Of a stretch of DNA of 21,574 bases, positions 15,460-19,657 are shown one piece after another. The notes under the pieces are model-generated. The model made no database searches and was not told the origin of the DNA. It worked only from the letters and a program-made list of their open reading frames with translations. Source of the DNA: a virus; IMG/VR virus record IMGVR_UViG_3300013114_000230, positions 1-21,574 of that record. One strand, written 5' to 3'. The translations under genes and the position numbers were made by a program. Every line of letters begins with the position of its first letter. Position 1 is the first letter of the stretch.

Positions 15460-15738
15460 ATGAACACTAAAGCAGACAAAACAGAATTTTTAAACATCTT
15501 AAATAACTTTGATGCTTCAAACGTTAACTTTAATACTCAAAACGGATTAACTAATGTTAATTTTGCAAACAAAGACTTTACAATAAGTATAGTTTTTGAG
15601 GAAGAAACAGAAGTAATAACGACTATTGAATCTTATAATATTAACGATAACGATAAAGGTATTCTTTTTGATAGTGGAGACGATAATCAATTTGAAGAAT
15701 TTGTTTATAAGTGGTTTAAAAATATTTTAGACCACTAA
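15460..15738 (+). CDS. Array gene 1, acidic hypothetical protein
   Basis: 92 aa, acidic and Asn-rich (NFDASNVNFNTQNGLTNVNF), with a beta-rich middle (DFTISIVFEEETEVITTIES) and a helical end (FEEFVYKWFKNILDH). No motif or signal peptide recognised. Its TAA stop (15736-15738) is embedded in the R''-like box CACTAAC of the first attC-like site, as in integron cassettes. It is the first plus-strand gene, after the divergent promoter region. Its upstream boundary does not show the start/end complementarity of the later cassettes, so it may be the original phage gene next to which cassettes were inserted. Confidence 0.6.
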   Translation: MNTKADKTEFLNILNNFDASNVNFNTQNGLTNVNFANKDFTISIVFEEETEVITTIESYNINDNDKGILFDSGDDNQFEEFVYKWFKNILDH

Positions 15739-15824
15739 CGCTTGTATAAGATACGTGCGACTAAGAAGACAAAACAAATTAAAAATAAATGTTAAATGAG
15801 CATGGATTTTATACCATGTTATAA
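15733..15824 (+). repeat. attC-like site 1
   Basis: R'' CACTAAC (15733-15739); L'' TGTATAAGATACGTGC (15743-15758); L' GCATGGATTTTATACC (15800-15815); R' GTTATAA (15818-15824), with the inferred crossover between G15818 and T15819. The inner arms pair imperfectly over 15 positions. Confidence 0.75.
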
Positions 15825-15834
15825 ATTGTAAAAT

Positions 15835-16047
15835 ATGAGTTGGCAAGAAGATTTAAATAAAAGATTATCAGTAGGAGCAACATACACTATTGATGGAACA
15901 AAGGTAAGACTATTAGAATCTCCTAGAGGTGTAAGTGGATATGGTGGTCATGGTGGTGCTATATTCGTTAGCTGCGAGGTAATCGAGGATGGAGGTAGAT
16001 GGGAAAAAGGAACAACCCAAAGATTAAACGCTGAGTTTTTAAGATAG
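15835..16047 (+). CDS. Cassette gene 2, small Gly-rich protein
   Basis: 70 aa: an N-terminal helix MSWQEDLNKRLS, then strand-rich GATYTIDGTKVRLLESPRG, a Gly-rich loop SGYGGHGGAIFVSCEV and a C-terminal WEKGTTQRLNAEFLR. It looks like a compact beta-barrel. No family recognised. It begins 16 bp inside the cassette start and ends before the complementary R'' at 16054-16062, occupying almost the whole cassette, as typical integron cassettes do. No internal promoter is obvious; expression probably comes from upstream. Confidence 0.6.
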   Translation: MSWQEDLNKRLSVGATYTIDGTKVRLLESPRGVSGYGGHGGAIFVSCEVIEDGGRWEKGTTQRLNAEFLR

Positions 16048-16053
16048 CTTATT

Positions 16054-16241
16054 ATTTATAACGACCCGTCTATAATTAGTGGCGATGTAGTTATGATAAA
16101 CGAACAATCTACCACTTAGCCGAGCTTTATAATTATGTTTTAAATTTCTATTAAACTTAAATATAACGCTTGGCGAACTAAATAAATAAAGTTAAACATA
16201 AAGAACTCACGCAACGCCATTATTTATAGACCTTGTTGTGT
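16054..16241 (+). repeat. attC-like site 2, unusually long or compound
   Basis: R'' ATTTATAAC (16054-16062) matches its own cassette start. GTCTATAATTAGTGGC (16068-16083) pairs with GCCATTATTTATAGAC (16216-16231) at 14 of 16 positions, and R' is GTTGTGT (16235-16241). The 132-nt central part holds a second foldback (16076-16136) and a second R''-like start TATAACGCTTGGCG (16162-16175), suggesting a nested or remnant site. Confidence 0.6.
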
Positions 16242-16271
16242 GTAGTTTTATTACATTTAAAGAATAATATT

Positions 16272-16754
16272 ATGAAAATGTCAGAAGATAAAAAACTAGA
16301 ATTTCAAGCTAACAGGTGGGCGAACAATAAAGAGCGATCACTACGAAATAAATGGTACGCAATAGGTAGAATAGACTTGTTAATTATTTCTATTTCAGGA
16401 GCAGGTATATACTCTTGTTTTGAAATAATAAAATTCATGTATTCTAATAAAATAGAAAGCGAGTTTCTAATGTTAAAAATTGCAGGAGCATTATTTGTAT
16501 TCTCTATTCTACTAAATTTTATATCACAATTTGCGTCTGAATATTCTAACGATAAGAACGCTATTTACAATAACAAAAAATTCAATGATTTGACATCTGA
16601 TGATAAACAAACAGAAGAAAAAACATATAATACCCTTGAATGTAAAATGGATTTATCAGACAATGTAGTGAAGTATTCAAATAGAATATCATCATTTACA
16701 ATGCTTGTAGGTGTGGCTTTAGTTACTACCTTTTTATTTACAATAGTTAATTAG
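16272..16754 (+). CDS. Cassette gene 3, three-helix membrane protein
   Basis: 160 aa from ATG 16272; the longer frame from 16233 begins inside the attC-like site and is rejected. Hydrophilic N-terminus (MKMSEDKKLEFQANRWANNK), then three hydrophobic segments: about 36-56 (LLIISISGAGIYSCFEIIKF), 68-88 (LKIAGALFVFSILLNFI) and 141-158 (MLVGVALVTTFLFTIV), with a charged cytoplasm-like loop between helices 2 and 3. The size and N-terminal charged helix plus helical pairs are reminiscent of small membrane effectors (for example SLATT-type), but no diagnostic motif is seen. A convergent tiny ORF shares its cassette and overlaps its stop. Function unknown; an effector role is speculation. Confidence 0.65.
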   Translation: MKMSEDKKLEFQANRWANNKERSLRNKWYAIGRIDLLIISISGAGIYSCFEIIKFMYSNKIESEFLMLKIAGALFVFSILLNFISQFASEYSNDKNAIYNNKKFNDLTSDDKQTEEKTYNTLECKMDLSDNVVKYSNRISSFTMLVGVALVTTFLFTIVN

Positions 16755-16895: not shown

Positions 16896-16992
16896 TACAC
16901 ACAACGCTACTGTATAAACTGTAAGCGATTGAAGAAATGAATTATTAACATACGAGCTGTATTAGCTTATGGTTTTATACAGCTTGTTACCC
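16896..16992 (+). repeat. attC-like site 3
   Basis: R'' TACACACAAC (16896-16905), a perfect 10-bp complement of its cassette start at 16235. L'' CTGTATAAACTGTAAGC (16910-16926), L' GCTTATGGTTTTATACAG (16965-16982), the latter with one extra base, then CTT and R' GTTACCC (16986-16992). Confidence 0.8.
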
Positions 16993-17005
16993 ACTATTAT
17001 TAGAT

Positions 17006-17296
17006 ATGGATAAGTTTAAAGAATTAGTAAAAAGATGCAAATCTAGTGTTGAAATAAGAGTAAACGACCACAAAGATTATTACCAAACAGTAGAAGAATA
17101 CATTAAAGAAGATGGTTATTTCAATAATGACCATAAGGAAAAAATAGGTGAAACCATTTATAATGAAATGATAAAAAAAGACACTATTGTAATTGTAACT
17201 GCTTACCCCGACTCAGCATTAGGAAGTTATACAATATACCATTATGATATAGATACAGCAGTAGAAACTATACTTGATTGGTGCAATGGTGGGTAA
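17006..17296 (+). CDS. Cassette gene 4, acidic hypothetical protein
   Basis: 96 aa: N-terminal helix (MDKFKELVKRCKSSVEIRVN), a central acidic helix (TVEEYIKEDGYFNNDHKEKI), then strand/turn YPDSALGSYTIYHYDIDTAV and a Trp-containing tail. It has the compact alpha/beta look of small integron-cassette proteins, with no recognised motif. The TAA (17294-17296) lies inside GTGGGTAAC, which is complementary to the cassette start GTTACCCAC at 16986. The site after it is only a half, so this cassette seems fused to the next. Confidence 0.6.
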   Translation: MDKFKELVKRCKSSVEIRVNDHKDYYQTVEEYIKEDGYFNNDHKEKIGETIYNEMIKKDTIVIVTAYPDSALGSYTIYHYDIDTAVETILDWCNGG

Positions 17297-17319
17297 CGCT
17301 TAGTGTAAATTTTGAAGCG
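17289..17319 (+). repeat. attC-like half-site 4
   Basis: R'' GTGGGTAAC (17289-17297) and an L''-like TTAGTGTAAATTTTGAAGCG, without any matching L'/R' before the next gene starts at 17320. Probably the remnant of a deletion that fused two cassettes. Confidence 0.6.
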
Positions 17320-17577
17320 ATGAGAGAAGAGATACTAAAAATATTAGATAATTACCATGTTGAATTACAAGAAGCTGAGGGAATAACTGAAGAGCTTTTG
17401 AATTTACATATTTTTAGCGAAAGTTATATTAAATGTTGGAACTGTAAACAGTTTGAGCAAACAGGAACTAACTACGCTGGTAATGAAGTCGGACACTGTA
17501 AATTAAACAACTGTAAGGTATCACACCCTAAATGGCAAAAGTGCGGAGAATATGAGCAATGCGGTAATTTTCGCTAA
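17320..17577 (+). CDS. Cassette gene 5, cysteine-rich, probably zinc-binding
   Basis: 85 aa from ATG 17320. The first ~40 residues are an acidic helix (EEILKILDNYHVELQEAEGI). The second half is a Cys cluster: CWNC, then GHCKLNNC, then KCGEYEQC, giving six cysteines plus histidines, a plausible zinc ribbon or treble-clef. This suggests nucleic-acid or protein binding. The frame is open upstream into the half-site, so the start is a choice based on ATG; the original 5' end may have been lost in the cassette fusion. The TAA lies in the R'' TCGCTAAC of site 5. Confidence 0.55.
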   Translation: MREEILKILDNYHVELQEAEGITEELLNLHIFSESYIKCWNCKQFEQTGTNYAGNEVGHCKLNNCKVSHPKWQKCGEYEQCGNFR

Positions 17578-17704
17578 CGCTTGTGTAAACGCTTTGCGAC
17601 TTAACTAAATACAAATGTTCCTTAGCACCAAAAAAGACTATTTAAGCACGCCACAAGGCATAAGTACAATGTTCCTTAGCATTGCGTTTTACACCTTGTT
17701 GTAG
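17571..17704 (+). repeat. attC-like site 5
   Basis: R'' TCGCTAAC (17571-17578); L'' TGTGTAAACGCTTTGC (17582-17597); L' GCATTGCGTTTTACAC (17679-17694), with one extra T; CCTT; R' GTTGTAG (17698-17704). The variable central part contains a 14-bp direct repeat AATGTTCCTTAGCA at 17614-17627 and 17668-17681. Confidence 0.8.
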
Positions 17705-17738
17705 TGAGTACAGAATATTAACAATAAAATTAAATAAA

Positions 17739-17873
17739 ATGGACGTAGAAAATAATTTAAAAGCCATTTGTAAATGGTTAAAAGAAGTAAAAGGAATAAC
17801 AGAAATTGATATGATGGATTTAATCAATTATATACCTGAATATGAAGAATGGCTTAAATCAGCACCAAAGTAG
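17739..17873 (+). CDS. Cassette gene 6, 44-aa helical protein
   Basis: 44 aa from ATG 17739 (MDVENNLKAICKWLKEVKGI, then MMDLINYIPEYEEWLKSAPK). The longer frame from 17682 starts inside site 5 and is rejected. It is amphipathic and helical, with no motif. The cassette (17699-17960) is the smallest of the intact ones and holds only this gene. Tiny proteins like this are common in cassettes and might be antitoxins or inhibitors, but nothing shows this. Confidence 0.5.
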   Translation: MDVENNLKAICKWLKEVKGITEIDMMDLINYIPEYEEWLKSAPK

Positions 17874-17877
17874 TATT

Positions 17878-17966
17878 CACTACAACGCTTGTGTAAATGC
17901 CGTGCAAGTGTTACAAATCAAATTAACGGCTACAAATTAAGCATGGTGTTTTACACCGTGTTATCA
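17878..17966 (+). repeat. attC-like site 6
   Basis: R'' CACTACAAC (17878-17886), complementary to GTTGTAGTG at 17698; L'' TGTGTAAATGCCGTGC (17890-17905); L' GCATGGTGTTTTACACC (17941-17957), with one extra base; R' GTTATCA (17960-17966). Confidence 0.8.
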
Positions 17967-17978
17967 ATTATTTATTAA

Positions 17979-18218
17979 ATGGGACAAACTAAAAGAATAC
18001 ACGCAAAAGACTACGCTAAAAACCTATACGGTGAACATAAGCAGTATGTGCATATAGCAACAGAAGCTTTTAGGGCTGGTGAAGATAATGCTGTTTTTGT
18101 AATGAGAAAAGAAAGCGAACTTTATAAGGAACTGGAAGAGTTAAGGCAATACAAAAAAGAAAATGAAGAAATGATAAATGACCCAAACAGATTAGCGGAC
18201 ATGATAGCAGGACTCTAA
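17979..18218 (+). CDS. Cassette gene 7, small helical protein
   Basis: 79 aa, N-terminal basic stretch (MGQTKRIHAKDYAKNLYGEH), then helix YVHIATEAFRAGEDNAVFVM and a coiled-coil segment rich in Glu/Lys (SELYKELEELRQYKKENEEM). No recognised family. It starts 19 bp after the crossover point, a typical cassette spacing. Its TAA is followed by the complementary R'' (ATTGATAAC, 18221-18229) of half-site 7. Confidence 0.6.
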   Translation: MGQTKRIHAKDYAKNLYGEHKQYVHIATEAFRAGEDNAVFVMRKESELYKELEELRQYKKENEEMINDPNRLADMIAGL

Positions 18219-18262
18219 TTATTGATAACGCTTTGGGTATGGAGTCGGTTTTTTACTGATTT
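18216..18262 (+). repeat. attC-like half-site 7
   Basis: R'' ATTGATAAC (18221-18229) is complementary to its cassette start at 17960 and is followed by GCTTTGGGTATGGAGTCGG. There is no recognisable L'/R' and no GTTAGCAAC cassette start before the next gene, so cassettes 7 and 8 appear fused. Confidence 0.5.
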
Positions 18263-18283
18263 GAAACACTAAAACTAAAGATT

Positions 18284-18502
18284 ATGAGTAAAAGTATAAA
18301 TAGATTCTTAATTGAAAAAGGAATTAAAAGCAACGCACAAAAGATAACTATATTACAAATGGTGCAATGGGTAGATGAATGGCAAGAAGAAGTAAAAAAC
18401 TGCTCTATACCTGTTGTTAGCAACTGCGAATGTAAAAACTTACCTAAAGGTGAGGTAGCAATAAGTAGCAAGGCAATAACCAATCCTAATTGGGAAGAAT
18501 AG
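18284..18502 (+). CDS. Cassette gene 8, small hypothetical protein
   Basis: 72 aa: a helical N-terminus (MSKSINRFLIEKGIKSNAQK), helix ITILQMVQWVDEWQEEVKNC, and a loop with three cysteines (NC..., then NCECKNL). It ends ITNPNWEE. The two closely spaced cysteines are too few for a defined zinc site. No family. The gene lies upstream of site 8 and its cassette has lost the expected 5' border. Confidence 0.5.
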   Translation: MSKSINRFLIEKGIKSNAQKITILQMVQWVDEWQEEVKNCSIPVVSNCECKNLPKGEVAISSKAITNPNWEE

Positions 18503-18602
18503 TTGTTGCTAACGCTTGGCTATGATTATGTAGCCTTGAAACACAGAACTTTGAATTAAATATAAACTTTAATAAGGGTATTAATTATAGCCCTTGTTAG
18601 CA
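18503..18602 (+). repeat. attC-like site 8
   Basis: R'' TTGTTGCTAAC (18503-18513); L'' GGCTATGATTATGTAGCC (18518-18535); L' GGGTATTAATTATAGCCC (18576-18593); TT; R' GTTAGCA (18596-18602). The arms differ in sequence from the TGTGTAAA type but keep the same plan. Confidence 0.7.
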
Positions 18603-18614
18603 ACTTTTAAAATT

Positions 18615-18794
18615 ATGAAATTTATAGAGAAAAGTAATGTTAGCTTAAAGCAAAAATTTGGTAATGCAATAACAGGATTTGCAAAAATAGCAGATGGTTT
18701 AATTAGTGTTGTAACATTAGGTAATTATAGAAGTAATTTTTGCTTAATGTTTATAATTTATAGAAAGACAAATAATTTCTTGTTAGATGAATAA
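18615..18794 (+). CDS. Cassette gene 9, 59-aa protein
   Basis: 59 aa from ATG 18615 (MKFIEKSNVSLKQKFGNAIT then GFAKIADGLISVVTLGNY), ending in a hydrophobic stretch (FCLMFIIYRKTNNFLLDE). The frame starting at 18594 overlaps site 8 and is rejected. The C-terminal change of character suggests a possible truncation or frameshift of a longer protein. It is the last gene of the array; R'' TTGTTGCTAAC (18801-18811) closes its cassette. Confidence 0.45.
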   Translation: MKFIEKSNVSLKQKFGNAITGFAKIADGLISVVTLGNYRSNFCLMFIIYRKTNNFLLDE

Positions 18795-18800
18795 TTTTTA

Positions 18801-18840
18801 TTGTTGCTAACATATCGCTAAACGCCATTCAAAAATTGCA
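18801..18840 (+). repeat. attC-like half-site 9, right end of array
   Basis: TTGTTGCTAAC (18801-18811) is complementary to the cassette start GTTAGCAAC at 18596. It is followed by ATATCGCTAAACGCC and phage sequence, with no L'/R'. It marks the right boundary. Confidence 0.55.
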
Positions 18841-19147: not shown

Positions 19148-19657
19148 ATGAGCATTTATAAAAAACTGTTAGAGGTTCAAAAAGAAGTAGGAGCTATTTC
19201 AAAGGACTCTAAAAACCCTTTCTTTAAGTCAAAGTATTTTGATATTAATCAATTAATAGAACACGTACAACCAGTATTAAATAAGAATGGTTTGGTATTA
19301 ACTCAACCTATTATTAAGGGTTATGTATTTAGTTGTTTAAATGATATTGACAGTACAGATTGTATCGAATCTTGTTTAGAATTACCTCAACAATCAGACC
19401 CTCAAAAACTAGGTTCGTGTATTACCTATTACAGACGTTATACATTAGCTTCTTTATTAGGTTTACAGGCTGAGGACGATGATGGAAACAAAGCAAGTAA
19501 ACCAAGCAAACCTAAACCAGTTGAAAAAGTTAAGATAACAAAAGAAGCTTATCAAAAAGCTGTTCAGATGTTAGGAGAAAAGAAAGTTACTTTAGATCAA
19601 ATAAAATCTAAATACATACTTTCAAAAGAACAAGAAGAAACATTAAGTAAAATTTGA
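19148..19657 (+). CDS. erf: ERF-family single-strand annealing protein
   Basis: 169 aa. It anneals complementary single strands in phage recombination. The N-terminus (LLEVQKEVGAISKDSKNPFF, then KYFDINQLIEHVQPVLNKNG) and the signature ITYYRRYTLASLLGLQAEDDD (91-112, shown in part) are characteristic of the ERF family. The C-terminal ~50 residues are Lys/Pro-rich and then helical. It is followed by the DUF3127 gene 20 bp on, a usual partnership of recombinase and single-strand-binding-like protein. Confidence 0.9.
   Translation: MSIYKKLLEVQKEVGAISKDSKNPFFKSKYFDINQLIEHVQPVLNKNGLVLTQPIIKGYVFSCLNDIDSTDCIESCLELPQQSDPQKLGSCITYYRRYTLASLLGLQAEDDDGNKASKPSKPKPVEKVKITKEAYQKAVQMLGEKKVTLDQIKSKYILSKEQEETLSKI

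Follow-up and report, generated by a model that had tools for sequence, protein, structure and literature searches.

The window, by which we mean the whole stretch of 21,574 bases that was analysed, is a viral contig from IMG/VR with a G+C content of 30%. It carries genes for a terminase, a portal and a major head protein, and also for a DnaB-like helicase, an SSB-like protein and an Erf-like annealing protein (19148-19657); a Holliday-junction-resolvase gene is likewise present in the phage. Between 15.4 and 18.8 kb there is a series of small ORFs on the + strand with hairpin-like sites between them. None of these small ORFs has a family match over the cut-off, and an Rfam scan of the window gave no relevant match.

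We recognised eight sites on the + strand, each running from a left box (AAC) to a right box (GTT) and each associated with one ORF on the same strand. Site 1 (15737-15820, AAC at 15737 and GTT at 15818) contains both of the G·T wobbles described below; its ORF (15835-16047, 70 aa, no family) has no relative in the viral contigs. Site 2 (16060-16237), which has a long loop, is followed by the ORF 16272-16754 (160 aa, no family over the cut-off), and site 3 (16903-16988, AAC at 16903 and GTT at 16986) by the ORF 17006-17296 (96 aa). In site 4 (17295-17415) the right box has decayed to TTT (17413-17415); the ORF 17320-17577 starts in the loop of this site, and the right arm and right box lie inside it. 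Site 5 (17576-17700, AAC at 17576 and GTT at 17698) precedes the ORF 17739-17873 (44 aa), and site 6 (17884-17962, AAC at 17884 and GTT at 17960) the ORF 17979-18218 (79 aa). Site 7 (18227-18418) again has an ORF, 18284-18502, that starts in its loop and includes its right arm. Finally, site 8 (18511-18598) is followed by the ORF 18615-18794 (59 aa). The array ends with a terminal left box AAC (18809-18811, + strand), to which no further site belongs. Immediately upstream of site 1 lies the ORF 15460-15738 (+ strand), and no site was recognised before it. The left box reads AACG in all eight sites, and seven of them have intact AAC and GTT boxes with paired, imperfect arms, the exception being site 4. 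Between the R and L stems there is an unpaired central spacer of 4-7 nt on the left and 2-5 nt on the right.

ORFs that start in the loop and read through the right arm, such as 17320-17577 and 18284-18502, were also seen in L005 (585-707) and in L028, a contig from a Chitinophagales MAG. In ORFs starting inside the hairpin loop, GTT AGY is often in frame as Val-Ser. The two window proteins of this kind have a common Cys-containing C-terminal pattern, with the ends NPNW and HPKW, and may be related to each other.

The initial annotation had taken the sites for attC sites of the integron type, and had noted that in sites 3, 5 and 6 one arm is longer than the other by one base, always in a TTTTA run, and that site 1 has no such base. 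Moving from the boxes toward the loop, we aligned the left arm, starting at AAC, with the reverse-complemented right arm, starting at GTT. The alignment bears out both observations: sites 3, 5 and 6 each have one T more on the right-hand side, invariably within the TTTT run, and site 1 has no extra base. Its position counted from GTT is 9-12 in site 3, 7-10 in site 5 and about 7-11 nt in site 6, the exact position being ambiguous because of the T-run. The attC-type identity of the sites holds as well, and an asymmetry of this sort is what gives attC its polarity. The bulge that was expected from folding was found in part. When the arms alone are folded as + strand with DNA parameters, sites 3 and 5 give a hairpin whose right arm bulges by a single base; the hairpin of site 6 has a 1x2 internal loop, in which the additional base again belongs to the right arm. 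On the other hand, hairpin and bulge are absent from the whole-site MFE folds of the window sites, in which long loops dominate.

A right-arm bulge is present in only three of the eight window sites. Sites 1 and 2 lack an extra base, site 4 has no clear one, and in sites 7 and 8 it is the left arm that is longer by one base; the bulge is therefore not universal. We also found the extra base in homologous sites of the phage contigs L006, L007, L008, L011, L012 and L013 and in the Polaribacter phage P12002L (GGCTAAACGG/CCGTTTTAGCC). Sites 5 and 6 and the homologs with an extra base in other contigs look related by descent, and given this apparent common descent they are not independent cases.

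The arms were named by comparison with a real attC, the canonical one downstream of aadA7 on a plasmid. Its bottom strand reads CATCTAACGCTTGAATTAAG..GAATTGTTAGA. The + strand of the window has the left arm CTAACGCTTG, which is identical to the 5' part of that bottom strand, and CTTGTTRRR on the right-hand side. Since the + strand matches the bottom strand of a canonical attC, the sites are inverted with respect to the ORFs, and the right arm is L''. This rules out the earlier naming, which had assumed the canonical orientation and called the arm with the extra base L'. Extrahelical bases are by definition located on the R''-L'' arm (PMC2727003), and it is only through the inversion of the sites that the extra T falls on this usual side. 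Furthermore, the R' AAC is followed by G in the window sites, as it is in most attC sites (PMC2727003). The order within a cassette is site and then ORF; the canonical order of ORF and then attC, which we checked on aadA7, was not found, and the ORFs are antisense to the attC polarity in every array seen.

The boxes, the conserved G after the R' AAC, the spacer and the polarity marks on one arm would all be expected if the region were a canonical attC cluster without integrase (CALIN), captured from an ordinary IntI integron and marked by canonical extrahelical bases. However, the antisense ORFs, in all arrays seen, do not agree with such an origin, and neither does the way in which most of the sites are marked, namely by G·T wobbles and with no unpaired base.

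We now turn to the related sites, which were found with a relaxed pattern in ten viral contigs and which also occur in Cellulophaga and Polaribacter phages and in Bacteroidota genomes. A strict site pattern had no match in the viral contigs. The relaxed pattern had none in the cellular genome contigs, that is, the exact site type of the window was not found there, though the family is present. A nearly identical copy of the 84-bp site 1 lies between unrelated ORFs in L005, L009 and L010, and site 8 has relatives in the Cellulophaga phages phi17:1, phi13:2 and phi18:3 and in the Polaribacter phage Freya. Note that the site scanner required AACG and TGTT, so that outside the window the conservation of these letters follows from the search itself. 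The model R1, which was trained without the window sites and without loops and is loop-intolerant, does not recover the window sites.

Among 61 distinct sites, scored for wobbles in a strand-symmetric manner, G·T outnumbers A·C on the ORF-sense strand by 119:11 (p = 5e-24). Pairs with G on the left and T on the right are concentrated at two distances from GTT, 9 nt (33 cases) and 14 nt (48 cases). In an alignment of 26 sites, from which the members of the window were excluded, 96% of the cells are paired and the arm covariation is 0.527, compared with 0.141 in shuffles. The two G·T pairs are retained in 24 and 25 of these 26 sites, and their neighbours vary among Watson-Crick pairs. In the window, there is a T at right-arm distance 9 in all eight sites and at distance 14 in six; the bulged sites 3 and 6 have a T at 15. 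Canonical extrahelical bases are located at about 8 and 15-17 nt (numbering of PMC2727003; T-N6-G spacing in PMC3053210), and most sites of the family have their G·T pairs near these positions and no unpaired base. We infer that the general strand-marking feature is the two conserved G·T wobbles and not the extra base; the latter is real in sites 3, 5 and 6, and the suggestion that it determines strand choice in general does not stand. It is most readily understood as a form of the proximal mark in which the extra T takes the place of the first G·T wobble. In attC, a T as the first extrahelical base means little loss (PMC2727003).

The predicted fold of the sense strand (+ in the window) is more stable than that of the minus strand in 52 of 60 family sites, with little or no difference in the expected direction for sites 4, 5 and 8. 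The strand that folds is thus the mRNA-sense strand, and together with the co-directional ORFs and the near-invariant pairs, which would be G·U in RNA, this is what intercistronic hairpins in the sense mRNA (terminators, processing signals or regulatory elements) would look like. Such RNA elements do not explain that whole units are gained and lost at one box, that unit ends are specific to their cassettes, or that an integrase and an attI-like box lie beside arrays (see below), and there is no relevant match in Rfam. We therefore consider them highly improbable as an explanation of the array, while the hairpins may have an extra RNA role alongside recombination.

What moves is larger than a site, a point missed by the initial annotation. 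In all eight units, the sequence after the right box of one site complements the sequence before the left box of the next over about 6-10 nt; the score of these cognate unit ends is 70.3, as opposed to 23.6 for the flanks of the same site (permutation p = 7e-5). The unit comprises the hairpin and the downstream ORF; it begins at the left AAC box of its site and stops at the corresponding box of the following site, with the left box as the putative point of cutting. The ORFs of units 4 and 7 cross the right box, and none crosses the left box, except for stop codons to which the box supplies the TAA. For example, the unit of site 6 with the ORF 17979-18218 is also found in L011, between unrelated neighbours: the homology starts at the left box, runs through the site and the ORF and stops at the next AAC. 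The encoded protein has a relative with 86% identity in L011/L020.

Sites of types 1 and 6 are very similar between unrelated neighbours, as REP- or MITE-like mobile repeats would be if hairpins inserted alone between genes. What is seen to move, however, is a hairpin with its downstream ORF, the unit ends complement each other and not the flanks of their own site, and inserts with ORFs enter one fixed box beside the integrase in the phage Freya; we give this explanation hardly any credence.

A recurrent G·T wobble was also seen outside the box, at the 8th base beyond GTT, in about five of the eight window units and in several chromosomal ones; examples are the unit ends 16238-16250 and 17701-17713 and those in L028 and L046. 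In a circle, the whole core site may consist of two arms of ~13 bp around the spacer, like Xer sites.

The exchange of units can be followed between near-identical phages. Where the Polaribacter phages P12002L and P12002S share sequence in this region they are 99.6% identical, but they differ by whole units, and nearly all of the breakpoints are within the left AAC box or a few bases from it. In one case, GCAGGTAAC is followed by a site and a methylase ORF, up to GCTAAC, and then by GTTTGG. Furthermore, the Polaribacter phages Freya_2, Freya_6 and Freya_10 have 100% identical flanks around a single point, between TTTACAAC and ACCCC. At this point, at one AAC and adjoining an annotated integrase gene, there are inserts of 1374 and 4100 bp, which account exactly for the differences in genome length. 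The inserts, which include ORFs, have one fixed, attI-like box as their point of entry, and one of the junction partners is a box without a hairpin. The integrase was taken by the discoverers of Freya as a sign of lysogeny (PMC8776804). In this comparison of natural variants, the junction of exchanged cassettes is at the R' box.

The Erf-like, SSB-like and Holliday-junction-resolvase genes of the phage would also allow mosaicism by homologous recombination between hairpins, with an Erf-like protein and no site-specific recombinase. It is scarcely believable, given that junctions lie at boxes a few bases long with no homology on either side, among them the hairpin-less box of Freya, and given the strict association of arrays with an integrase.

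The methylase cassette of P12002L (gp36, a DNA methylase; L019 30078-30848) is shared with the Cellulophaga phage phi12:1 (90% at the DNA level) and also occurs in the Flavobacterium mumin phages (87%). The methylase has relatives with 58-66% protein identity in Lacinutrix and Chitinophagales genomes.

Around 20 Freya-like integrase genes in Flavobacteriaceae genomes we found 49 sites in 324 kb, and none in 390 kb around 20 Xer-type controls from the same genomes; several of the 20 loci that have no sites stop at a contig edge beside the integrase. The chromosomal sites lie on one side and on one strand, toward the integrase and independent of the direction of its own gene. Behind the terminal AAC of several chromosomal arrays there is a conserved palindrome, ATAAACACA..TGTGTTTAT; this and the fixed insertion box of Freya correspond to an attI-like docking site. 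In the window, the only trace of an attI is the terminal AAC at 18809. No integrase gene was found in the 21.6-kb contig, which is a fragment, and a search for proteins related to the Freya integrase, which covered the window and other IMG/VR contigs, gave no match but Freya itself. We also considered gp38 of phi13:2 as the recombinase of the arrays; it is an XerD-like phage integrase with a weak family match and was ruled out.

The Chitinophagales contig L028 has an array of six or more sites, each ~120 nt long, and the family thus extends beyond Flavobacteriaceae. At another locus (G032:C1:1171592-1172413), the integrase frame beside an array of six sites is broken by one stop codon, and this array may be without an active integrase.

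The Freya-type integrases have their best score with NF040815. Their matches to TIGR02249, the integron integrase, break at about 178-238 and stay below the cut-off, and in an alignment to IntI4 the residues 179-245 of IntI4 have no counterpart. The interval from KG to HxxR is 62 residues in nearly all of them and 104 in IntI1, i.e. about 42 shorter, as judged against IntI1 and PDB chains only. A SPLD-like motif is found near the C-terminal end both in IntI1 and in the Freya-type integrases. Judging from these alignments, the additional domain that defines IntI (PMC9668308) is absent from the integrases associated with the arrays. Most of the chromosomal integrases (L056-L075) start with ~100 residues that match nothing in Pfam, an N-terminal stretch of their own; those of Freya, L043, L067 and L073 are without it.

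These integrases bear directly on the CALIN explanation, as those co-located with arrays lack the IntI domain (62 versus 104 residues between KG and HxxR in IntI1). On the other hand, Qi et al. 2023 (PMC9892861) predicted attC sites in P12002L, a phage with many sites of the family, and showed that IntI1 recombines P12002L_attC2, which may be one of them. Taken together, we regard a capture from an ordinary IntI integron as unlikely.

We have considerable confidence that the region, in a tailed Bacteroidota phage, is a cassette array belonging to a gene-capture system akin to the integrons by which antibiotic resistance is spread. It would work as follows. As single-stranded DNA, the gene-sense strand would fold into a hairpin, in which the outer stem, the box, the unpaired spacer and the inner stem would form the core site of the recombinase. 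The two G·T wobbles would mark the strand, in the role of the canonical extrahelical bases, with the unpaired T standing in for the first G·T mark in sites 3, 5 and 6. The cut would be made at the left (R') box, and cassettes would enter at attI. For the phage of the window, the recombinase would have to act in trans or be encoded outside the contig. As the ORFs are antisense to the attC polarity, the genes are read toward the integrase and need their own promoters or those of the phage.

The activity of the recombinase, the use of the strands and the role of the wobbles we infer from sequence comparison; the junctions, the units, the docking box and the integrase are evidence of a system that would work like an integron. 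We do not class it as a canonical integron because, when looked for, the IntI domain and the order of ORF and then attC were not found. It is somewhat more likely than not that the integrons of these Bacteroidota and of the phages that infect them form a class of their own, with an IntI-like recombinase that lacks the domain regarded as necessary for recombining folded attC sites and reads G·T wobbles where others read extrahelical bases, and with genes that face the docking site. Such a class could be a sister or an ancestral lineage of the known integrons.

Bacteroidota are thought to be nearly devoid of integrons, and IntegronFinder 2.0 found one complete integron in this phylum, in Salinibacter (PMC9024848). 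If our interpretation is true, many marine Bacteroidota and their phages have a gene-capture system in common, and current detectors miss it because its integrase has no IntI domain and its sites are marked by wobbles. The standing question of whether the additional domain of IntI is needed for the recombination of single-stranded attC would become testable, with the Freya isolates as a near-isogenic natural series. A search that did not reach most subscription papers and preprints found no published report of this system.

A close published case is that of the phage CALINs of Qi et al. 2023 (PMC9892861), which, in the parts accessible, are attC clusters without integrase in virulent phages, including P12002L. 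There, two sites of P12002L have divergent directions, whereas we see a family-wide inversion; neither this inversion nor the wobble signature, the unit exchange with P12002S or the integrase was found in those parts. With integron arrays in general (classes 1-3 and the Vibrio superintegrons) the system shares the folded site, the R and L boxes, the unpaired spacer, the docking site beside the integrase and small ORFs without assigned function, and with attC the G after the R' AAC, strand marks on the L'' arm and the junction at the R' box. It differs from them in that the ORF is downstream of the site, antisense to the attC polarity and reading toward the integrase, in that G·T wobbles replace most of the extrahelical bases, and in that in the circular form the stem runs about 6-13 bp past the R box. 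The integrase differs from IntI by lacking the additional domain. It resembles XerA, XerC and XerD (NF040815, TIGR02224/5) in its best score, with NF040815, and in a similar compact catalytic domain; unlike these, it adjoins arrays, has a SPLD-like motif as IntI1 does and in many cases carries the unnamed N-terminal stretch of ~100 residues. Finally, an unusual orientation is also known from the reverse integrons of Spirochaetes (PMC9668308), but there it is intI that is reversed; in the present arrays the reversal, with respect to attC and attI, concerns the cassette ORFs.
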